From a virus, in the IMG/VR virus record IMGVR_UViG_3300035438_000513, positions 1 through 31,502 of that record: DNA of 31,502 nucleotides; one strand, written 5' to 3'. The position numbers and the translations under genes were made by a program. This document shows, piece after piece, positions 5,941-31,502 of the stretch; the first letter of the stretch is position 1, and each line of letters opens with the position of its first letter. The notes beneath the pieces were generated by a model that worked only from the letters and a program-made list of their open reading frames with translations, was not told the DNA's origin and did not search any database.

Positions 5941-6547
5941 TGATTTGATTTATGTATTGTTTATAATATTCAATTGCTGCCGCTGAACGTTCTAACATTT
6001 CCTCTTCAAGTTGATAGTCACGTTCAATGGTTAACATCGTTACAAGGCTTTGAATTGGTGCATCGCACACATTATGTAGGTCTTCATTTTCGTAACCGAT
6101 TAAGTCGCTTGGTGTGTCTACCATACAGTAAGCAAGTGCAGCGCGTTCTACATTGTAAAGATACATATACCCTCGTAATTGATACTCGTAATCTTTGATA
6201 TTAATATCACCAGGTGTTGCAGGAAATGTGTCAAATGACCATGAGGTTTTAATGTCGATTATTAACTCAGGTGTGTAGATGTCGCATTCACCTGTTAGCA
6301 GCTCGGTTGTTTTACGTTCTGTATTCTTTTCGTAGTTAGTAAATAGAACATCGTTAAGTAGTTCAATTGACTGATCCTCGCATTGTATACCCTTAGTTAC
6401 GTACTTATTGTTTAACTCAGTAGTGTAACCAAAGTAGTCTTGTTTAGCAATTGACTTGATGTAGCTCTTTGCTGTTTCGGACAGTGCCTCACTTTTACTT
6501 CGTGAGGCTGTCATAATTTTCGGGAGTGATGAACATCTGATTAGCAT
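5921..6547 (-). CDS. PD-(D/E)XK exonuclease (YqaJ/RecE-like)
   Basis: A 208-residue nuclease with the viral recombinase pattern: VTKGIQCEDQSIELL (about 50-64, the helix with the first acidic residue), LLTGECDIYTPELIIDIKTS (about 83-102, the G-x-D ... D-x-K core) and YEYQLRGYMYLY with the motif-IV glutamine. Enzymes of this kind resect double-stranded ends 5' to 3' to expose ssDNA for an annealing protein. The ERF gene lies two genes upstream, so the two probably form a two-component recombination system, with the DUF3127 protein as possible ssDNA partner. Start overlaps the preceding stop by 7 bases. Confidence 0.86.
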   Translation of the reverse strand: MLIRCSSLPKIMTASRSKSEALSETAKSYIKSIAKQDYFGYTTELNNKYVTKGIQCEDQSIELLNDVLFTNYEKNTERKTTELLTGECDIYTPELIIDIKTSWSFDTFPATPGDINIKDYEYQLRGYMYLYNVERAALAYCMVDTPSDLIGYENEDLHNVCDAPIQSLVTMLTIERDYQLEEEMLERSAAAIEYYKQYINQINEKKYS

Positions 6548-6825
6548 GATTTTTTAAATTTTAATTGATTATACTTTAATAATTCAGCTTCTTCATGTTC
6601 CGTTAAGTCTTGTGTAACTTCACAATCAATATAAAGTGTATCCGATGTAATACTATACCATTGATGCGTTGCTTTTCCAATAAATTCAACTGATACAAAT
6701 TCAACTCCTTCTGATATTGAATCATAAAAAACAACAGAAGAACCAATAGGAGCAATATATTTTTTCCCTTTTAACGACATTAAAGGTTCGCACTCTTTAT
6801 CGTGTAATTCATATGTTACTAACAT
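6541..6825 (-). CDS. Hypothetical beta-rich protein in recombination operon
   Basis: A 94-residue protein starting MLVTYELHDKECEPLMSLKG between the ERF and exonuclease genes, overlapping both by 7 bases. Alternating hydrophobic residues (GSSVVFYDSISEGVEFVSVE, then THQWYSITSDTLYIDCEV) suggest a small beta fold followed by a charged helix (EHEEAELLKYNQLKFKK). No known domain. Position suggests a role near recombination. Confidence 0.7.
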   Translation of the reverse strand: MLVTYELHDKECEPLMSLKGKKYIAPIGSSVVFYDSISEGVEFVSVEFIGKATHQWYSITSDTLYIDCEVTQDLTEHEEAELLKYNQLKFKKSC

Positions 6826-9410: not shown

Positions 9411-11501
9411 TTAATTAAATATACATTCATAAAATCTTATTGTTTTTCCATTTACCTTTTGAATCTTTTGTTCATAGCCACAAATCTTTAAGGCTTGACC
9501 GATTCTCTTAGTAGACGTTCTTAAACTAGGAAACAATCTTTCTAATTCTAGTTTTATATCTGTGTTTGTCATCTTAGTGTAAGGGTCTGGAATTAAATTT
9601 CTATCTATCAATTCAACCTCAGACATTACCTCTGTATTTTTAGTTGTTGACTTATTTAAATACTCAATTTCTCCTTTCGTTAAAAACCATGCTGTTTTAT
9701 CCTGCTCCCATTCTTTATATAATTCAACAAACAATTTTGTTTTATCTATCTTTTTAAATCTATCAAAATCAAATGAAATTAAATTTATAGGAATAATCCT
9801 TCTATTACCTGTCGGGTCGTTTATTATTTCGTAATCATTTGATGTACCACCTAATACTGCTAATCTGTTTAAATCTTCCGAAACTTTACCAAAAGGCATT
9901 CTTATCGAGAAACTTTGTTGTGAAGATAAACGCTTTAATTTTGTAGCATCTCTTTTAGATTTACCACCAAATTCATCATCTACAATCAACCATTTTTTAG
10001 TCATTAAAATTTCAGAATCTTTACCTTCATCTAAATTTGATTCTGCATAAAACTTTTTTAAATCTTCTGGAAATAAATTTCTAAAAAATTCTGTTTTTTT
10101 AATACCTTGTTCACCGCTTAATACTAGAATCATTAATGAATATGTACCGTGAGCAGAACCTATTAATCCTAACATCCATTTTTTTAAATAAACATCTAAA
10201 TAATCTGTTATAACTAGCTTTTCTCTTTCTTCATATATTACACTTTCAATCTCAAAACACTTTATTAATTCATCAAAATTGTCTTTTGCTTCAATATGTT
10301 TGTTTTGTTCAAACCAATTAGTTATCGGGTTGTAAGATTCAGAATTATCAACATTTTGAATTAACGTAAATATTTTATCTTTAGATATTTTATCGTCTAT
10401 TTTTGTCCAAACTTGAGTGTAAAATTTTGCTAGTGTTCGGTCTGTCATTTCTTCTTTGCCAAATTCAAAATTTCTCGTTACCTCATTAAATCTAACTTTC
10501 GATAATTTTATTAAATCAATTATTAAATCAATTTCTGTTTTTTCTTCATTATCTTTTTCTTTAAATTTTTCAACTAAATTTTCATCATCTCGAATGTTTA
10601 ACTCTTTTAAAATCTCTTTTGGATTATCAGATAACTTTACAATAGATTTTATTTGTTCAGTTTTTTCAGATGTTAATTTAATGCCTGCTTCTCTAAACTT
10701 ATAATAAACACTAGAAATTGTTATTCCTGTACCTTCTCTTTTTAAAGCTTGTGTATAATCCTTTTCTGCTTTTTCAGAATTATATTTTACAGACGACCTA
10801 CATAAAGCATGAAAATAATCTCTACCATCTTCTCGAAATTCTGAAACTAATGCAAAGCATAAACCAATATAATCATTATAATCATCAAACAAATTCATAT
10901 AACTTGCTTGATTTACCATTTCATCAAAATCAGATTTTACAACTATTGTCTTAAAATTCTTTTTATCAACCTCTTTTTTCTTTAAGTATTTTTTAAAGGT
11001 TTTTGATTTGTTATTTTGAAATAAATGCGGGTCATAAGATACAAAGCGCAACCTTGAAACATCTTTACAAGCTTTATCAAGAACTATTGAATAATTTATG
11101 AAGAAATATTCTTCTAAACCTAAATAAGCATCTAAATGTTTATTACCGTCTATTTTTACATAAATAGCATATCCACCATTGCCAGAACAAGAAGCATGAA
11201 CTACATAAACATATTCGTCTCTTTTGATATCTTCAATGTCAAAAGTGCAAATCTGATCTTTTGCATCCACATCTAAACAAATAATGTTTGAATGTTCTAC
11301 CAAGCTTTTAATTTCGCGTTGAGCAAACACTCCAGATGGTGTTAAACAATGCAGTTTTGTCTTTTCAATTTTGTTAGTTCTATAATCTAACACTTCATCC
11401 TGCCACTGTCCATTTTTCACACCATCAAAAAACTCCTGTTCAGATAAGTTTCTAATTGGTTTTGCCTTTGGCTCTTTGCAGTATTTAAAAATACTAATCA
11501 T
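9411..11501 (-). CDS. Primase-helicase: BT4734-like N-domain and VirE-type ATPase
   Basis: This 696-residue replication protein joins three modules. Residues 1-180 match the BT4734-like N-terminal domain, an archaeo-eukaryotic primase relative, with ICLDVDAKD (D77, D79) and SCSGNGGYAIYVKI. Residues 190-275 resemble a primase C-terminal helical domain (GLCFALVSEFREDGRDYFHA). Residues about 430-600 are a virulence-associated E/SF3-like ATPase, with GEQGIKKT (463-470) as Walker A and WLIVDDEF (504-511) as Walker B, then GGTSNDYEIINDPTGNRR. In Walker A the expected glycine before Lys-Thr is lysine. The protein probably primes and unwinds phage DNA; it is the first gene after the candidate origin and its own promoter. 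Confidence 0.93.
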   Translation of the reverse strand: MISIFKYCKEPKAKPIRNLSEQEFFDGVKNGQWQDEVLDYRTNKIEKTKLHCLTPSGVFAQREIKSLVEHSNIICLDVDAKDQICTFDIEDIKRDEYVYVVHASCSGNGGYAIYVKIDGNKHLDAYLGLEEYFFINYSIVLDKACKDVSRLRFVSYDPHLFQNNKSKTFKKYLKKKEVDKKNFKTIVVKSDFDEMVNQASYMNLFDDYNDYIGLCFALVSEFREDGRDYFHALCRSSVKYNSEKAEKDYTQALKREGTGITISSVYYKFREAGIKLTSEKTEQIKSIVKLSDNPKEILKELNIRDDENLVEKFKEKDNEEKTEIDLIIDLIKLSKVRFNEVTRNFEFGKEEMTDRTLAKFYTQVWTKIDDKISKDKIFTLIQNVDNSESYNPITNWFEQNKHIEAKDNFDELIKCFEIESVIYEEREKLVITDYLDVYLKKWMLGLIGSAHGTYSLMILVLSGEQGIKKTEFFRNLFPEDLKKFYAESNLDEGKDSEILMTKKWLIVDDEFGGKSKRDATKLKRLSSQQSFSIRMPFGKVSEDLNRLAVLGGTSNDYEIINDPTGNRRIIPINLISFDFDRFKKIDKTKLFVELYKEWEQDKTAWFLTKGEIEYLNKSTTKNTEVMSEVELIDRNLIPDPYTKMTNTDIKLELERLFPSLRTSTKRIGQALKICGYEQKIQKVNGKTIRFYECIFN

Positions 11502-11640: not shown

Positions 11641-11664
11641 CATTTTTTTATTTTTTTTTTTGAC

Positions 11665-11936
11665 GGTTACAGGTTACAGATGGTTACAGATCAGTTTTTC
11701 AATCTGTAACCGCTCAAACCCCTAGTGTTTATTGGTATTTATATATATAGGTTACAGGTTACACTTAATATACATATTTTTAACTACTTTATTTTTTTTT
11801 TTGTTTGATTAAACTTTATTTTTTTTACGCTAGAAGTTTTAAAAAAGTTAAAAAAATGGCGGTCTTCTGTAACCGCTTTGTAACACTTTGATAATCAGAC
11901 TGTTTTCGGTTACACGTTTTTTGTTAATCTGTAACT
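11665..11936. repeat. GGTTACA repeat array, candidate replication origin or operator
   Basis: This belongs to the only long gene-free stretch (11502-12022). Ten copies of GGTTACAG/C or its complement occur at 11665, 11672, 11682, 11704(-), 11750, 11757, 11867(-), 11879(- partial), 11908 and 11929(- partial). Three are in tandem, and two make a perfect 10-base inverted repeat, GGTTACAGAT 11682-11691 with ATCTGTAACC 11702-11711. CTGTAACCGCT is repeated at 11704 and 11867. The copies are interspersed with T-runs and very AT-rich DNA that could melt easily. Placement just upstream of the primase operon is typical of iterons; clustered operators for a phage regulator are the alternative. Confidence 0.75.
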
Positions 11937-15174: not shown

Positions 15175-15671
15175 AAATACCAATTTGTTAAATAGTTATT
15201 ATGCTGCGGATAAACATCACCGTTCTCATTAGTTGTATACTCAGGAAACAAACTATTATTTTTACAAATATAGTCTAAAAACCTTTGCGAGTAACTTTCT
15301 GCAATACGTTTTTCTTTTTCGATTAAGTAATCAACTTCCTCTTTCGATACGATTTCGCTATTCTCAGATTGATGCTTATAAATCCCTTTGTTACTAATTG
15401 TGTAAGCGCAAAACGGCAAATATTCCACCATGGTGAAATGAATTAGCATCGGCTTTAAATACGAGCGTACAAGCGTTATATAGTTACCAGCAAGTGTATT
15501 GTTGGTAATATCCGTTTTAATCTTATCCAATAGCTTACTACCCGTGTATTGTTGAATCCAAATGTTTTGAGCAACTAACACAAATTGAATCACTTTGTCA
15601 ACGTCTGTATTTGCGTTCAAAGAAGTGTATTCTTGTAGGTCTTTTTTCGATATTAATAGTGCTTCTGCCAT
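15171..15671 (-). CDS. Head-tail connector-like protein (DUF6712 type)
   Basis: The 166-residue product starts MAEALLISKKDLQEYTSLNA and has VIQFVLVAQNIWIQQYTGSK, LVRSYLKPMLIHFTMVEYLP, YKHQSENSEIVSKEEVD and a C-terminal LFPEYTTN. This pattern, an alpha-helical bundle with AQ.IWIQ.Y.G.KL and SENSE, matches a family common in Bacteroidota phages (DUF6712) that I take to be an adaptor below the portal, analogous to HK97 gp6. The HNH gene separates it from the portal and overlaps its start by 19 bases. Family recall, not a search. Confidence 0.8.
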   Translation of the reverse strand: MAEALLISKKDLQEYTSLNANTDVDKVIQFVLVAQNIWIQQYTGSKLLDKIKTDITNNTLAGNYITLVRSYLKPMLIHFTMVEYLPFCAYTISNKGIYKHQSENSEIVSKEEVDYLIEKEKRIAESYSQRFLDYICKNNSLFPEYTTNENGDVYPQHNNYLTNWYL

Positions 15672-16168
15672 AAGTGTTTGTATGCTTTTTTATTTTTAAT
15701 CCTCCAAATTATCGATGCGTGTACCTTATATATTATTCCTAATTTTCTTGTAGATAAATTTGAGTTAAAAATATATAACGCTTCTTCATCCGTTAACTTT
15801 GTTTTTGTAAGTCTTATTTTAACACCGTGTATTACGTTTTCACTTATTGTACACCATTCTAAATTTTCAACTCTATTATCTGTTTTTACACCATTTATAT
15901 GGTTTACTACGGGTTTATTTTCCTCATTTGGTATAAATGCTTCAGCGACTAATCTATGTACTGTAAAATCAAATCTTTTACCATCATTTTTTAAATTACA
16001 TCTGTAATATCCTTTATCATTTAATCTTATGTTTTTAGGTGTTCCTTTGTAAACCCTTGTAAAACCATCTCTATAATGTTTTACTACCCTATCAATACTT
16101 CTAACGTTTCCAATATTACTAACTTCATATTGTTTTTCAAATCCTTTAATTGCTTTCCAAGTTTCCAT
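15653..16168 (-). CDS. HNH homing endonuclease (NUMOD4, HNH, C-terminal HTH)
   Basis: A 171-residue free-standing homing endonuclease. NUMOD4 covers METWKAIKGFEKQYEVSNIG; the HNH core is TVHRLVAEAFIPNEENKPVV with NHINGVKTDNRVENLEWCT; a C-terminal HTH (LSTRKLGIIYKVHASIIWRI) would read DNA. It is inserted between portal and connector genes, two genes whose products contact each other, and has its own promoter at 16185-16214, which fits a selfish element. It overlaps the connector start by 19 bases, so the connector's ribosome binding region lies within it. It is a diverged relative of the HNH at 3188-3631. Confidence 0.95.
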   Translation of the reverse strand: METWKAIKGFEKQYEVSNIGNVRSIDRVVKHYRDGFTRVYKGTPKNIRLNDKGYYRCNLKNDGKRFDFTVHRLVAEAFIPNEENKPVVNHINGVKTDNRVENLEWCTISENVIHGVKIRLTKTKLTDEEALYIFNSNLSTRKLGIIYKVHASIIWRIKNKKAYKHLWQKHY

Positions 16169-16228: not shown

Positions 16229-17953
16229 TTATTTTGCATCTGAGGGTAAATTTTTATTTCTTGGACTATATCCCTTTAATGGTAAGTTATTAGGGTAAAC
16301 AGAAACTTCTGAGGGATTAGTTACTTTATACCCTCTTATCTCTGCTGCTCTTGTCCCTACCTTTTCAAACATATCTTTATCGTTTAACATATAAGTTAAT
16401 CGTGACCATTTGTGATGGCATCGCGGTCCACCATGGAATCTAAATATATCATATTTATCCGCTCCAAATTCTCCAAATCCTCTATTAACAACACTTTCAC
16501 TCATTCTGTCAATATCCTCTTTTCTATACACTTTATTAGCACTCATCATTGCTTTACAAAAAGCTCTTTCGGGATTCGGGTTACCTGTGTATTTATATCG
16601 AACCTTAAACATTCTGCCCTTTACTTGTTTATCCTGTGAAGATACTGCCGTAGGTCTTGCTGTTCCTGTTGATACAAAATTTAATACTTTATCAAGTAAA
16701 GAAAGTTTTGTAGTAGTATTTTCAAGGTCGTTTAAATATTCGTTTAATGATTCTTCATTATCGTAATCAGCATCCCTCTCATCAATTAATACATAGTTTT
16801 CGTCAATATCTTCACCGAACTCATCTAATAACAATTCAAGCTCTGATTTATATGAACTCATCTGTACGGGCTGTGGCTCATCCCCTTGTAAAGGATTCAA
16901 TGTTTTAAATTTAAGGTTAAGTGATACACCATTAAATGATAACACTTTTTTAAGCATTTCAACAATCATTTGTTGTTTTGGTTTGATAACCATGTTTTCA
17001 AATAACAACGCTCCAGTTTTCATTTCATCTGCATTTGAACTAAATCCTGTTGCAACTGAAACACCAAATAATAGAGGAGTAGTAACGTTATGTGAACGTA
17101 ATATTTTGAACGTAGATTCTTCACTCAAATATTGGTAATGGTCTGGAGCATCATTTAAAGGTATTGAATCAATTGTTGTTTTGGTTGCTTCATTTTCATT
17201 AAAGGAAATTACTACTTTCTTACCTTTTGAACCTGTAAGCTTACTAATTACTTGAGCTGAAATTTCATCTTTCATCTCGTCAGTTGGGGTGCCGTTGTTA
17301 AAGTTTATTATACTTGTTGGTGAAAAAGAGTTACTAACCTCATTTATAAGGTATTCAGCCATTTTCTCCTCAAGTAACGCGTAATCAATACCACCTTGAT
17401 AATCTACATTTGAAAAGTATTTCATCCCAGCGCTATAAGGTGCTAAATATAATATCTCAACTTCTTTTTTAGACGTTCCAAACGAATCGAATCTTTTAGG
17501 TACGTATTTTTTAGGGTCTGTCCAATTGTCAGAATAGAAATATCCTACAATATCACCGTCCTTATTGCATTTCTCAGGTCTTAATAATTGAATAGGCGTG
17601 TGGAAAACCCTTGTAATTGCTTTATGTCCCTTATCGTAATGAATCTGTAATGCACACTGCCCTAATGCGTACAAATCAAAGATAATGCGTCTTAAATCAT
17701 CCTCTTTTAATATAGATAACAGTTGCGCCCATTCGTTTGGCTTCATTGCGCTATCAGTAGCGGTCAACCCTTGACCGTAAATTAACCTACAAATGTTATT
17801 AATTACAGCGTTGTTCGTTGCTGAATTGCTGTAACGCTCGATTAAGAACTGATAATAGTTATTATCTTCACCATATTCTACCCATTCGTTTTTGTTATTT
17901 TCAACAATTACGGGAGCAGTATAGGATGATAATTGTATAATGTTATTATTCAT
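16229..17953 (-). CDS. Portal protein with MuF-like C-terminal domain
   Basis: The 574-residue protein forms the dodecameric DNA gate at the capsid vertex. Portal-like features are NNAVINNICRLIYGQGLTAT near 47-66, the crown/stem region with DDLRRIIFDLYALGQCALQI, FHTPIQLLRPEKCNKDG and a helical C-terminal core with SHNVTTPLLFGVSVATGFSS. Residues about 445-574 are an extra module, KVRYKYTGNPNPERAFCKAM ... DKYDIFRFHGGPRCHHKWSR, resembling the C-terminus of Mu F-like minor head proteins, with clustered Cys and His. A portal carrying its own MuF-like tail seems recurrent in Bacteroidota phages. It overlaps the previous gene by 8 bases. Confidence 0.88.
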   Translation of the reverse strand: MNNNIIQLSSYTAPVIVENNKNEWVEYGEDNNYYQFLIERYSNSATNNAVINNICRLIYGQGLTATDSAMKPNEWAQLLSILKEDDLRRIIFDLYALGQCALQIHYDKGHKAITRVFHTPIQLLRPEKCNKDGDIVGYFYSDNWTDPKKYVPKRFDSFGTSKKEVEILYLAPYSAGMKYFSNVDYQGGIDYALLEEKMAEYLINEVSNSFSPTSIINFNNGTPTDEMKDEISAQVISKLTGSKGKKVVISFNENEATKTTIDSIPLNDAPDHYQYLSEESTFKILRSHNVTTPLLFGVSVATGFSSNADEMKTGALLFENMVIKPKQQMIVEMLKKVLSFNGVSLNLKFKTLNPLQGDEPQPVQMSSYKSELELLLDEFGEDIDENYVLIDERDADYDNEESLNEYLNDLENTTTKLSLLDKVLNFVSTGTARPTAVSSQDKQVKGRMFKVRYKYTGNPNPERAFCKAMMSANKVYRKEDIDRMSESVVNRGFGEFGADKYDIFRFHGGPRCHHKWSRLTYMLNDKDMFEKVGTRAAEIRGYKVTNPSEVSVYPNNLPLKGYSPRNKNLPSDAK

Positions 17954-18334: not shown

Positions 18335-18940
18335 TTAACTTGTTACAATCGTGGATTGTGTTTTTGGAAAATCTTGGTTTGATAAATTATTATAAAAAGC
18401 ATTTGTCCCCAAAGGCACGAATTGTGAGGGCAAAAGCTCCTCTGCTTGGAAGGTCATGGAATATCCACTAAAATCACCGACCGATGCTCCATTATTAATA
18501 TTTCCACTCGTTACGTCACAACCTCTCAAAAGTCCAACTAAGAAAAATTGTCCTTCGTTGTTTTCAACTAAAATTCTTGGCTTTGCATACGCTAAAGTTT
18601 TAACAGCGGTGTGTGTTGCAATGTCCTGTTTTTTTAGTTTAATAGTCAATGTTTGACGAAAGAATGTAGTTCCGTTTTCACGTGAAGTTACTATTTCTTG
18701 GTCGTAAACATTCTCGTTAGATTTAAGCTCGAATTTATATAATGAAGCAATACCTTGAAAATAATCAATTGATTCATTAAAATCGTTATCCAATAGATAG
18801 TCCCACTGATTAGCCATTGGTGTGTTTTCTTTATAAATAAAATTTGCTGTTATATTCTCATTAATAAAGTAAACGTTTTTAAGCCCTGCAAGTGAATCCC
18901 TACAAGGCTCTAAACGACCTGCTGTTATAGCGCAAGGCAC
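18335..18940 (-). CDS. Tail tube-like structural protein, paralogue 2
   Basis: A 201-residue protein that is a clear duplicate of the gene upstream. Both start PC-x-x-x-x-GR-x-E-x-C followed by GL-K-x-VYFIN, and the block KFELKSNENVYDQEIVTSRE followed by TTFFRQTLTIKLKKQD is nearly the same in the two. Further matches are GQFFLVGLLRGCD and GDFSGYSMTFQAEE. Two near-N-terminal cysteines are conserved. High-copy virion proteins made from capsid-proximal genes and bracketed by terminators are often tail tube subunits; that is my preferred reading, with decoration protein as alternative. The start is GTG at 18940, two bases after the upstream stop. The C-terminus differs from paralogue 1. Confidence 0.78.
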   Translation of the reverse strand: MPCAITAGRLEPCRDSLAGLKNVYFINENITANFIYKENTPMANQWDYLLDNDFNESIDYFQGIASLYKFELKSNENVYDQEIVTSRENGTTFFRQTLTIKLKKQDIATHTAVKTLAYAKPRILVENNEGQFFLVGLLRGCDVTSGNINNGASVGDFSGYSMTFQAEELLPSQFVPLGTNAFYNNLSNQDFPKTQSTIVTS

Positions 18941-18942
18941 GG

Positions 18943-19485
18943 TTAAGCAGTTACAACCGTTGCACCAGTGAAACAGTCAGCAACAATAGTTGTTGAACTT
19001 GTAATGTCTGTGAATGGTGCTGGTAGAGCCTCTTCCGCAACGAAAGTTAAACTGTAACCATTAAAATCACCAAGCGCCCCACCATTGTTGATACTTCCTG
19101 CCGTTAAATCAGCACCTCTAAACAATCCCATCAAAAAGAATTGACCGTTGTTATTTTCAATTAGGACGTGTGGTCGACTATAGGCCAAAAGTTTGATTTC
19201 TTTGTGAGTAGTCGCGTCTTGTTTTTTCAGTTTAATTGTTAACGTTTGTCTAAAGAAAGTTGTGCCAGCTTCACGGCTAGTAACTATTTCTTGGTCAAAT
19301 ACATTCTCGTTAGACTTTAACTCATACTTGTACAAGTTGTCAACGTTTGTTACTGCCGTGATTAAGTCGTTTGTAAAAGTTACATCAGACGGAACTATTT
19401 GATAATTAATGAAGTACACGGCTTTTAGTCCTCCGATTGCTTCTTTACACGCTTCCGCGCGTCCTATTGTTAAATTACAAGGCAT
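18943..19485 (-). CDS. Tail tube-like structural protein, paralogue 1
   Basis: This 180-residue product starts MPCNLTIGRAEACKEAIGGL and contains KYELKSNENVFDQEIVTSRE, TTFFRQTLTIKLKKQD, GQFFLMGLFRGADL and GDFNGYSLTFVAEEALPAPF. It is strand-rich, lacks signal or membrane segments, and is closely related to the following gene (about two-thirds identical by eye in the central block). It lies after the capsid terminator. I think it forms the tail tube or a related ring, as the phage has a tape measure but no other obvious major tail protein. The tube assignment is contextual. Confidence 0.78.
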   Translation of the reverse strand: MPCNLTIGRAEACKEAIGGLKAVYFINYQIVPSDVTFTNDLITAVTNVDNLYKYELKSNENVFDQEIVTSREAGTTFFRQTLTIKLKKQDATTHKEIKLLAYSRPHVLIENNNGQFFLMGLFRGADLTAGSINNGGALGDFNGYSLTFVAEEALPAPFTDITSSTTIVADCFTGATVVTA

Positions 19486-24640: not shown

Positions 24641-26803
24641 TTAAAATGTTGCATTTCTTACTCTATTACGGTCTAAGGCTTGTGCTGTCGATACCTCACC
24701 GCTTACTACATACGCTTTAATAGGCTGTTGTTGTAACGCTCCTAACTGCATTTGTGGTTGTGCTTGTATAATGTCAAAGCTCGGAGTACGTGGGGATGTT
24801 GGTGTACTTGTTGCTGTATCTCCACCACCGCCACTGCTCTGAAATTGTGTGTTAGCTATCTTTGCTATGTTCAAAGCTCCTAACGTACCCACCAAACCAG
24901 CTTGTATAAATTGCGCTCCAGGGAATAAAGGCACTTGAGTTAATGCGGCTGTAACCCCTTGAGCAGTGTTAACAATTGCATTCCCTAAACTCGCGGCTTT
25001 ATTTAATTGAAATGCTTTGCGTTGGTCCGCCTCATTGCCTTGAGCGAATAGTTCTGCAATACCTCCCAACACATTAAAAGACATTGCTGTTAACTCAGCT
25101 TTTTTACTTAAAGTTTCACGTTCAGCTTTTATCTTAATGTCTTTTATTTCTTTTGCTTGCGCCTCTTCTAATGTCTTTGTATCTTCTCCGTTTTGTTTTG
25201 CAAGTTCAATCAGTCTGAAATATTTATCAGTAACCATTTGAACCTCTAAATCTTGCTTTAATTTTAAGGAATCATAGTAAGCATTTTCAACTCCTTCAAT
25301 TTCTGAAATTAAATTATTCTTATCTTCAATTTGCTTTAAATTATATTTTGATCTTATCAAATCAAGTTCTTCAAGTTGCGCCTGTTCTAATGATTTAGTA
25401 TCTTCATTGTATTCCTTAGCTTTTTCAATTAAGTAAAAATATTTGTCGTTAACGTCTTGTATTTCTTTTTGTTGTGCCGAAAGTCTTTTGTCTTGCGATT
25501 CTGTTAATTGTTTTTCAATATCACTTAACACTTGATTTTCTGCTTGAGCTTTGCTTTCAGCAACTTTATTTTCTAAATCAATTTGAGCTTTTAATTTTTC
25601 TTTTTGTTGTTCCTTTAATGTTTTTTGAGATTCTTTAAATGCGTCTTTTTGATTTTTTTCTAATGTTAAATTAAGTTCTTCTTGTTGCAGTTTTAAATCT
25701 TCGTTCTGATTTTTTTTAGTCTTTAAAATTTCATTTCTTTGAGCTTGGAAGTCCTTAAACTCTTTGTTTAAAGCATTTGCTCTATCCCAATCTTCATCTA
25801 CATAAGCTTCAATGTACATGTTTCGCTTATCCTTAAGCAATTTATCAAGGTCTGCAACCGTTCTTTTTTGTACTTGTACACGTTCCTTATTGAATTTTTT
25901 CTCTATGTTTAATTGTTCTTGTTCACTTGCGCCACGTGCTTTCGCTAATCTTAATTCAGCATTTAAATTTTTGTCTATCTCCTCAGTATTTTTTTTATAT
26001 TTTATGTTAGCCTTATCAATTTCATGATTCAAAGCATTTTGTCGACGCTCTAATTCTTTTGTACCATCAATCCATTCCATTATTTTAGGCAATAGGAATC
26101 CAATTGTCACTACCAAAACACCTATTCCTGTTGCTATAATAGCCCCTTTTAAAGTAGTAAACGCTGTTACTACATTTGTTTTTATAGCAGAGCCCAAATC
26201 AACAAATGATTTTTTAGCATCTTTCAAGCTTTGCAAACTTTCGGCTATTGCCATCGCACTTTGAACTTTCAAAAGTTGCTCTTCTACTTTTTCACTTTCA
26301 ACACCAATAAGCCCCAAAGCTCCTTGATAGGCAGCAAACCCACTTGTAACACCCCCGAGTGCGCCTGACATTTTTTGTGTCATTGTAGTGGCAGCTGCAT
26401 CAACTACTTTGTCAGTTTCAATTTGTGTTTTTCTAAACCTTGCAACTTGTTCAAGTAAATCTTTATACTCTTTAGTTGCTGTGTTCCCTGCTAATGCTAA
26501 CTCATAAAGTCTATCTTCAGCCTCACCCATACGAGTGGTTAATGGCTGTAAATCCCCATATACTTCCTCAAATGAAGAATTGACATTTGTTACGCTTTTG
26601 TTTAAGTCATGATAAGCCTTGTTTAAATCATGTAGTTCTTCCTCAGCTTTTTTTACTTCCTTACTATTTTTACCATACTTGCTACTAAGTGAATCAACAC
26701 TTTTTGACGTGTCATCAATTTGTTTTTGTAGTGAATCAAACTTAGATTCTACATCAGAAGTGTTAGTCTTTACCTCTAATTCAATTATTTTCTTTTCTGC
26801 CAT
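24641..26803 (-). CDS. Tail tape measure protein
   Basis: At 720 residues, with long alpha-helical coiled-coil regions, this sets tail length. The N-terminal 130 residues are heptad-rich (SKFDSLQKQIDDTSKSVDSL), a hydrophobic region follows (GAIIATGIGVLVVTIGFLLP, about 219-238) as usual for these proteins, then a long charged coiled coil (about 250-560) containing two similar repeats, KYFYLIEKAKEYNEDTKSLE and KYFRLIELAKQNGEDTKTLE. A Gly/Thr/Pro-rich C-terminus follows. At roughly 1.5 angstroms per residue it would suggest a tail near 110 nm, so a siphovirus. The 57-residue gene precedes it with a 19-base overlap. Confidence 0.92.
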   Translation of the reverse strand: MAEKKIIELEVKTNTSDVESKFDSLQKQIDDTSKSVDSLSSKYGKNSKEVKKAEEELHDLNKAYHDLNKSVTNVNSSFEEVYGDLQPLTTRMGEAEDRLYELALAGNTATKEYKDLLEQVARFRKTQIETDKVVDAAATTMTQKMSGALGGVTSGFAAYQGALGLIGVESEKVEEQLLKVQSAMAIAESLQSLKDAKKSFVDLGSAIKTNVVTAFTTLKGAIIATGIGVLVVTIGFLLPKIMEWIDGTKELERRQNALNHEIDKANIKYKKNTEEIDKNLNAELRLAKARGASEQEQLNIEKKFNKERVQVQKRTVADLDKLLKDKRNMYIEAYVDEDWDRANALNKEFKDFQAQRNEILKTKKNQNEDLKLQQEELNLTLEKNQKDAFKESQKTLKEQQKEKLKAQIDLENKVAESKAQAENQVLSDIEKQLTESQDKRLSAQQKEIQDVNDKYFYLIEKAKEYNEDTKSLEQAQLEELDLIRSKYNLKQIEDKNNLISEIEGVENAYYDSLKLKQDLEVQMVTDKYFRLIELAKQNGEDTKTLEEAQAKEIKDIKIKAERETLSKKAELTAMSFNVLGGIAELFAQGNEADQRKAFQLNKAASLGNAIVNTAQGVTAALTQVPLFPGAQFIQAGLVGTLGALNIAKIANTQFQSSGGGGDTATSTPTSPRTPSFDIIQAQPQMQLGALQQQPIKAYVVSGEVSTAQALDRNRVRNATF

Positions 26804-30147: not shown

Positions 30148-30686
30148 TTCGGTTGTTTAATTGAGTAGTTAAATATCTTTTCTAAATCTATTTTCAAATC
30201 ATTTACTAATTCTTGAGGTAAACGTTTGTAAGCCGCTTCAAATGGCTTAGTAAAAAACAAAGTTGGTCTTATACCTTTAGCATAAATTGACCTTGTGATT
30301 AACCAGGCGGTTGAATCGTAACTCATAAACTTCCCTTTCTTATCTTTGAACTGAAATTTACGTGATTTAACCCATCTGTTTATACCATCGGTCAACCCTC
30401 CTTTTTTACCTTTACCACTCCCAAACTTGTAAGGTGAGTTAGGAGCTTTAGCACTTGACTTCTTACCCCTCACTCCTTTGTCTTGATAGTTACCGTACTC
30501 CTCCATCTGAAAGTTAAGGAAGTAACCTTTAGCATAAACTTTCGCTTCACCTTTAAGTGAGTTGTAAAGCTTTCTTGATACGTTCCTATCGCCCTTACTT
30601 AAGTTAGTGCGAGCCTGTTTAATTACCGAAGTTTTAAACTTATCCAACGCAGCTTGTAGCCCTGACTCCCTTAAATCTGCTAACAT
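30144..30686 (-). CDS. HK97 gp10-like tail completion protein
   Basis: A basic 180-residue protein. It starts MLADLRESGLQAALDKFKTS, then has QMEEYGNYQDKGVRGKKSSA (about 62-81), DGINRWVKSRKFQFKDKKGK and the conserved WLITRSIYAKGIRPTLFFTK (about 128-147) followed by PFEAAYKRLP. EYG.Y.DKGV.G, I..W and RSI..KGI+PT.FF..PF fit the gp10-like neck/tail completion family, which sits at the head-tail interface. It overlaps the upstream gene by 7 bases and the next by 4. Confidence 0.82.
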   Translation of the reverse strand: MLADLRESGLQAALDKFKTSVIKQARTNLSKGDRNVSRKLYNSLKGEAKVYAKGYFLNFQMEEYGNYQDKGVRGKKSSAKAPNSPYKFGSGKGKKGGLTDGINRWVKSRKFQFKDKKGKFMSYDSTAWLITRSIYAKGIRPTLFFTKPFEAAYKRLPQELVNDLKIDLEKIFNYSIKQPK

Positions 30687-31138
30687 ATAGTCATTTCATT
30701 TGGTGCCAATATGTCAAAGGTCATTGTCCAACCTGCAACAGCATCGGTAAACCTATCAACAAAAGGCTCACAACTTGCCGTGTCGTCCAACACTTCGTAA
30801 CCTAAATTACTAATATCACCACGTCTTACACGTTCAAATATTCTATTTAGTATAGTTAACGTTGTGTTTAGAACATCATCCTCGTTGTCGTTACCCTTAA
30901 ATATATCCGTTACATCATCTTTACTTATATCGACTATACTCATCATAACAAGTGATATATTATACACCGTTGTATTACCTCTAAATGCTACATCATTAAA
31001 AATAATGTGACACAATGGGTACATATCTTGCTTTGCATTGGTAATTTTATCAAGGCTACCCTTCGTTACTCGATTAACTAACGGGTCCGCAAGTATAGAA
31101 TCATGCAATAATGTAGATAGGTTATAATAGTTTTTCAT
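30680..31138 (-). CDS. Tail terminator-like/tail completion protein, 152 aa
   Basis: The 152-residue product starts MKNYYNLSTLLHDSILADPL, then NAKQDMYPLCHIIFNDVAFR, NISLVMMSIVDISKDD, NDNEDDVLNTTLTILNRIFE and a closing AVAGWTMTFDILAPNEMTIC. The order of elements (N-terminal helix, P-L-x-H strand, a strand with I-x-L-V-M-M, a long helix, then G-W-x-M-x-F-D) resembles tail terminator or minor tail proteins of lambda U/gp10 type. It overlaps the frameshift ORF by 17 bases. Fold and role inferred. Confidence 0.68.
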   Translation of the reverse strand: MKNYYNLSTLLHDSILADPLVNRVTKGSLDKITNAKQDMYPLCHIIFNDVAFRGNTTVYNISLVMMSIVDISKDDVTDIFKGNDNEDDVLNTTLTILNRIFERVRRGDISNLGYEVLDDTASCEPFVDRFTDAVAGWTMTFDILAPNEMTIC

Positions 31139-31388
31139 GTGACTTCTTTAATTGATTAACTTCGATTCTACTTTTTTGTTGTTCGAAGGTTAGAAAAGTC
31201 AAACATTGATGAAGCCCCAACGCTGTAACTTCGTCAAATCTTCTAATGTCTCCTTGAGCGACGTGATAGATTGAACTATACCATCCCCATTGTTTGCTGA
31301 ATTGAACATTCTCTGAATACGGGTTTTGTTCTTCATTGTCTCCAAAGAGGATAGCGTACTGCTTATTAACTCGATTCCTAAAGTCCAA
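31122..31388 (-). CDS. Frameshift extension of tail assembly chaperone (GT-like domain)
   Basis: This frame has no ATG or GTG: the only possible start is TTG at 31388, exactly at the end of a nine-T run inside the chaperone gene. It lies in the -1 frame relative to that gene and stays open for 88 codons. The product has FSKQWGWYSSIYHVAQGDIR, FDEVTALGLHQCLTFLTFEQ and a basic end (KKSHEKLL), a well-formed protein domain rather than a shadow. I therefore read it as the C-terminal extension made by -1 frameshifting, as lambda T is joined to G. The extended form would bind the tape measure and recruit tube subunits. It overlaps the zero-frame end by 188 bases. Confidence 0.82.
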   Translation of the reverse strand: MDFRNRVNKQYAILFGDNEEQNPYSENVQFSKQWGWYSSIYHVAQGDIRRFDEVTALGLHQCLTFLTFEQQKSRIEVNQLKKSHEKLL

Positions 31389-31502
31389 AAAAAAACCGAG
31401 GCAGGAAGCACAACGTCCAACGGTGCGTATTTAAGAACCTCTGAGTAACTTAAATCTCCCTTGTAAGGCTCTATTTCATATTTGCCCTTAATATCCTTTA
31501 CA
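31199..31502 (-). CDS. Tail assembly chaperone-like protein, C-terminal part (enters from window edge)
   Basis: The frame is open from the window edge and ends at TAA... codon 31199-31201, giving about 100 residues: KDIKGKYEIEPYKGDLSYSE, then VLKYAPLDVVLPASVFFWTL and a long helical end to QRWGFINV. With the N-terminal part at 1-301 this makes a protein of roughly 200 residues or more. The frames are compatible only if the missing junction is 1 base modulo 3. The T-run that allows -1 frameshifting lies in the codons for VFFW. A TTG-started shorter version (31420) is an artefact of the window edge. Confidence 0.75.
   Translation of the reverse strand, partial: VKDIKGKYEIEPYKGDLSYSEVLKYAPLDVVLPASVFFWTLGIELISSTLSSLETMKNKTRIQRMFNSANNGDGIVQSITSLKETLEDLTKLQRWGFINV
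31388..31394 (-). promoter_or_regulatory. Programmed -1 frameshift slippery site (T TTT TTT)
   Basis: The minus strand has GG, nine Ts, then GG. In the chaperone frame the codons are GTT TTT TTT TGG, which places T TTT TTT in the X XXY YYZ register. A one-base slip back re-pairs perfectly and continues TTG GAC TTT in the frame of the 88-codon extension. I did not identify a convincing downstream pseudoknot. Confidence 0.8.

Follow-up and report, generated by a model that had tools for sequence, protein, structure and literature searches.

Features of the probably recoded gene

The window analysed here is a viral record and comprises 31,502 bases. The putatively recoded gene lies at its high-coordinate end on the minus strand, the strand being a point that was absent from the initial annotation of this DNA. 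The zero-frame ORF is 5'-open at the edge of the window; its first ~125 codons fall outside the contig and were read in relatives. The features of concern are the following:

31199..31501, minus strand: 3' part of the zero-frame ORF (ORF listing and translation; complete homologues in relatives)
31387..31395, minus strand: T9 run (A9 on the plus strand), kept as T9 or T10 in the relatives listed
31388..31394, minus strand: slippery heptamer T_TTT_TTT in the -1 register (sequence and relatives)
31122..31388, minus strand: -1 frame ORF of 88 codons plus stop, giving the helical C-terminal domain of the proposed fusion (ORF listing, translation, conservation and model)
31199..31388, minus strand: dual-read overlap of 190 bases, with strong support for selection on both frames (substitution and stop-avoidance tests)
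30680..31138, minus strand: the following gene, of 152 aa, which resembles a tail-completion gene in position only; it overlaps the end of the -1 ORF and has a homologue in relatives
24641..26803, minus strand: tape measure protein, 720 aa, in the same gene block (PHROG tape-measure matches, best E 5.7e-10)

The first of these segments encodes the end of a common N-terminal domain and then, past the slip site, a zero-frame tail of 62 residues. On the minus strand the zero-frame codons pass through the run as GTT (31396-31394), TTT, TTT and TGG (31387-31385), and the frame goes on for about 62 codons to a stop at 31201-31199. The -1 ORF of the window contains no ATG or GTG and heads with a TTG that lies partly inside the T run. 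The initial annotation had reported this phasing, the register of the heptamer, the 88 codons without ATG or GTG, some 60 further zero-frame codons and about 190 bases read in two frames. All of its coordinates were reproduced, and the last two figures were found to be 62 codons and 190 bases. A further observation, which extends to the representative relatives, concerns the bases TTTAGG past the run (31384-31375, minus strand): they encode Leu-Gly when read in the zero frame and Phe-Arg when read in the -1 frame, and they hold a TAG stop in the +1 frame.

Conservation of the run among relatives

Is the nine-base run genuine? An assembly error, a pseudogene or a phase-variable homopolymer may be suspected, for the source is a metagenomic contig, and homopolymers are error-prone and hypermutable. 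The initial annotation had itself pointed to eight or ten Ts making one continuous frame, or relatives with their own downstream ATG and no slippery run, as observations that would speak against it. A search with the fused product found at least 80 viral loci, and further searches of viral and bacterial genome collections, made with an N-domain homologue, an N-domain profile and a Nonlabens homologue, raised the total to at least 251 loci. Among the matches listed, 251/251 loci keep T_TTT_TTT in the -1 register (T9 in 234, T10 in 17), and no out-of-phase indel occurs at the run. For the T10 loci of the first set, one end of the run was lengthened by substitution. A second search used the -1 domain only, so that relatives were not picked through the N-domain. 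Here 80/80 loci among the matches listed are in register (T9 in 79, T10 in 1), with zero-frame extensions of 53-86 codons; both 251 and 80 are counts of loci rather than of independent lineages, and some contigs are shared between the searches.

The zero-frame tail is 53-90 codons long in nearly all loci listed, and 25 codons long in Nonlabens phages P12024L and P12024S, two isolated phages that also carry the arrangement. Loci were present as well in six bacterial genome records, including Galbibacter pacificus CAA-3, and every named host or genome record belongs to the Bacteroidota. With at least 600 rows matched in the search of the viral collection, this group of Bacteroidota phages appears abundant.

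Both observations that might have spoken against the initial annotation were sought, and neither was found among the listed loci; both frames stay open. Because the 251 and 80 loci listed, isolate genomes included, keep T9 or T10 in register, the alignments indicate that the T9 site is not an assembly error. Their conservation of the run rules out a pseudogene or phase variation as well, unless many relatives share one systematic error, and we regard such explanations as extremely improbable. From the first set, 67 representatives were taken at an identity limit of 78%. A sense-strand T run of nine or more is present at the slip site in 67/67 of them, while the 280 kb of ORF sequence that surround these loci contain only 2 others. 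Such runs are so rare elsewhere in ORFs that the T9 at the slip site is more than chance.

Selection on both reading frames

The overlap of 190 bases can be read in two frames. Is it under selection in both? The initial annotation had proposed to compare synonymous substitution over the overlap in related phages, and this test was run in the fused frame on 82 matched pairs, with synonymous change given relative to expectation and the upstream region set to 1.00 by construction. The ratio is near 1 in the segments upstream, falls to 0.20 in the segment starting at the slip, and is 0.46 across the overlap. It is still 0.63 past the zero-frame stop, where the start of the next gene is possibly the cause; therefore not all of the suppression need stem from the second frame. 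A breakdown of substitutions by codon position gives the same picture. Stop codons give a separate measure. Under ordinary codon usage 640 zero-frame stops are expected over 204 sequences, and 0 are observed. When the -1 codons were replaced with random synonyms, the zero frame remained open in 0-2.5% of trials for the 13 representatives whose tail has its full length; for the Nonlabens phage, with its 25-codon tail, the figure was 33%. Those replacements that are seen in the zero frame are not more conservative than chance would give, so the case for selection is stronger for an open zero frame than for a precise tail sequence.

One might argue that only the -1 frame matters, with the zero-frame tail a passive open stretch and its product merely a truncated form. 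Such a tail would agree with the lack of conservative replacements and with the mere 25 codons found in the Nonlabens phages, but it does not explain why none of the 640 expected stops is seen or why random synonyms so rarely leave the frame open in the 13 representatives. Nor does it explain why, among the loci listed, the tail keeps to 53-90 codons in phages other than the Nonlabens group, or why synonymous change is halved across the overlap. A passive tail is thus improbable in our estimate, and selection on both frames over the 190-base overlap is strongly supported by these sequence comparisons.

The -1 domain and the proposed products

What does the -1 frame encode? It had been described from the first as an ordered-looking domain, and this description is borne out: the domain is conserved among relatives, and its AlphaFold model is helical and confident, with a mean pLDDT of 89. 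No fold match for it was found in the PDB. For 20/67 representatives the -1 ORF is without any ATG or GTG. Among the other 47, the first ATG or GTG comes at about codon 57 or later in 44, beyond the conserved WGWY core, and conservation of the -1 protein sets in at the slip. These points bear directly on whether the downstream part could be an independent gene that has a start of its own, as it is treated in the annotation of P12024L/S (gp41 in the Nonlabens phage). Most -1 ORFs have no ATG or GTG ahead of the conserved core, and the missing usable starts rule such a gene out; we give it hardly any probability. Because no start codon is able to supply it, the -1 domain is, judging from its sequence, a real part of a protein that would be made only through recoding.

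The best explanation overall, and one that we consider quite likely on the sequence evidence, is a single gene that gives two isoforms through recoding. Both proteins would share an N-terminal domain of ~160 residues. Ordinary reading would continue for 62 codons beyond the T run and yield a protein of ~225 residues. A slip of one base back on U_UUU_UUU within U9 would instead yield a fusion of ~250 residues that ends in the ordered helical C-terminal domain (~88 residues), with its stop abutting or overlapping the start of the next gene.

Possible slippage by ribosome or RNA polymerase

Which machine slips at the run? Downstream of it no stimulatory RNA structure was found in the 67 representatives (mean folding z ~0), and upstream no SD-like stimulator is supported, with SD-like tetramers just upstream in 4/67. 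Simple ribosomal slippage on U7 without stimulators is possible, and seven Ts suffice for ribosomal slippage. The run is never shorter than nine Ts, however, in 331 locus reads among the matches listed. In many bacterial genomes it is also from nine bases on that A/T runs are visibly selected against (PMC1088944). Together with the missing RNA structure and SD-like element, and with the rarity of such sense-strand runs elsewhere in ORFs around the loci, this argues for programmed transcriptional slippage, in which RNA polymerase would add or drop a U at T9 and the same two proteins would come from another slipping machine. In that case the fusion would come from U10 transcripts and the zero-frame protein from U9 transcripts, and a U8 transcript would encode an N-domain ending after about two more codons. 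Since the +1 frame meets a stop after two codons in 63/67 representatives, a U8 transcript would yield little beyond the N-domain.

On the other hand, the heptamer lies in the exact ribosomal -1 register, and the two outer Ts may be kept by the amino acids on either side, to judge from the residues encoded there: V/L/I/F ahead of FF, and behind it W or Y (zero frame) or L (-1 frame). Given the correct register, the lack of stimulators, a run never below nine and outer Ts that are possibly held by residues, we place ribosomal slippage first and polymerase slippage as a serious second. Thus the slip is rather likely to be mainly tandem ribosomal slippage, and slippage by RNA polymerase, with the products just listed, is the less likely but by no means negligible reading. 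As for the programmed -1 frameshift that was initially claimed, the programmed -1 recoding is strongly supported (251/251 and 80/80 listed loci); the ribosomal mechanism implied there by the likeness to lambda is not established, since an invariant run of at least nine Ts without stimulators also suits the polymerase. A more far-reaching scenario, less likely than not, is a new phage gene family that uses polymerase slippage at an invariant T9. If true, two isoforms of a tail-assembly protein, or up to three with U8, would be made with alternative C-terminal ends from the same 190 bases. The invariant nine-base run makes the question of ribosome versus polymerase directly testable in the cultured Nonlabens phages.

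Neighbourhood and possible function

A homologue of the 152-aa next gene comes directly after the recoded gene in 64/64 testable representatives, most often with a 3-base overlap. Terminase is found upstream in 36/48, and the usual place of the recoded gene is between terminase and this tail-completion-like gene. A tape measure gene follows in the window, a few genes further downstream, and no major tail protein was recognized next to the recoded gene. Of the neighbours named in the initial annotation, the tape measure protein was recognized (720 aa, PHROG families); for the genes called tail completion and tail tip, the only PHROG matches are to families without a known function.

In 67/67 representatives the N-domain belongs to PHROG_32199, a family that likewise has no known function. 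The model of the zero-frame protein has a mean pLDDT of 79.7 and no match among PDB folds. Against a viral fold library its significant matches are uncharacterized phage proteins, and the two chaperone-named entries of that library are not significant. Likeness to known tail assembly chaperones was found neither in Pfam, PHROG nor the PDB, by sequence or by fold. Note that tail assembly chaperones are highly diverged in general, so the missing similarity is weak evidence against membership in this class.

Then what may the gene do? We favour a role like that of lambda gpG/gpGT, in which the scarcer fusion would join the tape measure to the tail-tube protein, because chaperones of the G/GT kind are the best known case in which tailed phages employ a -1 shift (PMC5009743). 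A second possibility, which we rate lower but take seriously, is that the recoded gene is real and yet encodes another head-tail or tail-module protein with two isoforms, not a chaperone. PHROG_32199 has no assigned function, and there is no match to Pfam, PDB or a chaperone-named PHROG. The gene order also points this way, with terminase upstream in 36/48, no major tail protein seen adjacent, and a single-ORF relative of the N-domain in Duneviridae that sits between portal/adaptor and tape measure genes. Yet the hallmark of G/GT is a tail-module gene that gives two products by -1 recoding (PMC5009743), and the tape measure gene is only a few genes downstream. The name of tail chaperone given initially fits in architecture and in tail-module neighbourhood; with no sequence or fold match to a known chaperone, the identity itself is not established. 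The recoded gene should not be filed as a member of the G/GT family, because a search for similarity gave none and the zero frame runs on well past the slip, but it may still work like one.

Several other places in the window were noticed. Two adjacent paralogues at 18335-19485 on the minus strand (MPCAITAGR..., 201 aa, and MPCNLTIGR..., 180 aa) lie beside a likely capsid gene; the 180-aa one matches PHROG_19091, of unknown function, and the pair are possibly tandem-duplicated tail or capsid-decoration proteins. A 171-aa ORF at 15653-16168 on the minus strand has by eye the look of an HNH/NUMOD-type homing endonuclease and seems to be inserted beside a portal-like gene (16229-17953). Two T11 runs (11651-11661 and 11792-11802) fall in an apparently non-coding stretch downstream of a 696-aa ORF at 9411-11501.

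Comparison with known systems

Tail genes with programmed -1 recoding are familiar, and in the limited set of literature searched no description of this gene or its frameshift was found. The novelty lies in the gene family, in its invariant run of nine bases, and in a long, conserved zero-frame tail encoded by DNA that is read twice. It is this lengthy dual-coded tail that is unusual, and it illustrates cleanly how a single slip can give two protein ends that are both under selection. Programmed recoding with dual coding is strongly supported by the sequences; the mechanism may be ribosomal, and the role may be that of a chaperone. The recoded gene is apparently unannotated, being called two unrelated hypothetical genes in its only close cultured relatives, and gene callers miss it or split it.

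Those relatives are the Nonlabens phages P12024L and P12024S (Inhavirus; PHROG_32199, PHROG_38404), where gp40+gp41 and gp38+gp39 have a homologous N-domain and -1 domain, with T9 in the same register and next to terminase. They differ from the window in a zero-frame tail of 25 codons and in being annotated as two hypothetical genes. At 6001-6695 of P12024L/S, where gp40+gp41 and gp38+gp39 lie, the second annotated CDS begins inside the -1 domain, and each pair is probably better annotated as a single recoded gene.

A more remote relative of the N-domain is a protein of ~293-302 aa in Duneviridae (hhalign 95%, profiles), encoded in the tail region, upstream of the tape measure and near portal/adaptor genes. 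Examples are Flavobacterium phage 2A gp12, laban6-1 gp17 and Cellulophaga phage Ingeline gp05. Unlike the window gene, it is one continuous ORF with no frameshift. We do not claim that its C-terminal half is the -1 domain: an alignment over the full length was obtained with the fused profile, but the -1 domain alone gave no match. Flavobacterium phage 6H gp10 was considered as a second independent frameshift and dropped, relatives such as phage 2A gp12 having one continuous ORF of ~293 aa. At 10047-10927 of phage 6H, gp10 has 191 aa and is truncated against the ~293-aa homologue of phage 2A; ~300 unannotated bases in other frames follow, and the region has the appearance of a gene that was disrupted or that carries a sequencing indel.

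Programmed transcriptional slippage is known in bacteria from the A9 of Thermus dnaX, from Shigella mxiE and from IS elements. Like these, the window family has a conserved run of at least nine bases that joins two frames with no evident stimulatory structure. Unlike them, its run also forms a correct ribosomal -1 heptamer.

A close comparison in design is lambda G/GT, where a -1 shift at a heptamer near the 3' end of G leaves the N-domain alone or fused to a -1 domain without its own start (PMC5009743). Frameshift efficiency is 6-7% in two chaperone genes (PMC3711429). As in lambda and its HK97-type relatives, the window family has an in-register heptamer in a tail-module gene (251/251 and 80/80 listed loci), and as in lambda its -1 ORF lacks a usable start of its own, so that the product would arise only as a fusion. 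In contrast to lambda, the family shares no detectable sequence or fold similarity with G/GT. Terminase is the usual upstream neighbour of the family's gene and the tape measure lies downstream; a major tail protein, which a G/GT-type gene would have on its other side, was not recognized. The family's U_UUU_UUU is set in an invariant U9 run, and 53-90 further zero-frame codons (25 in the Nonlabens phages) are dual-coded beyond the slip.
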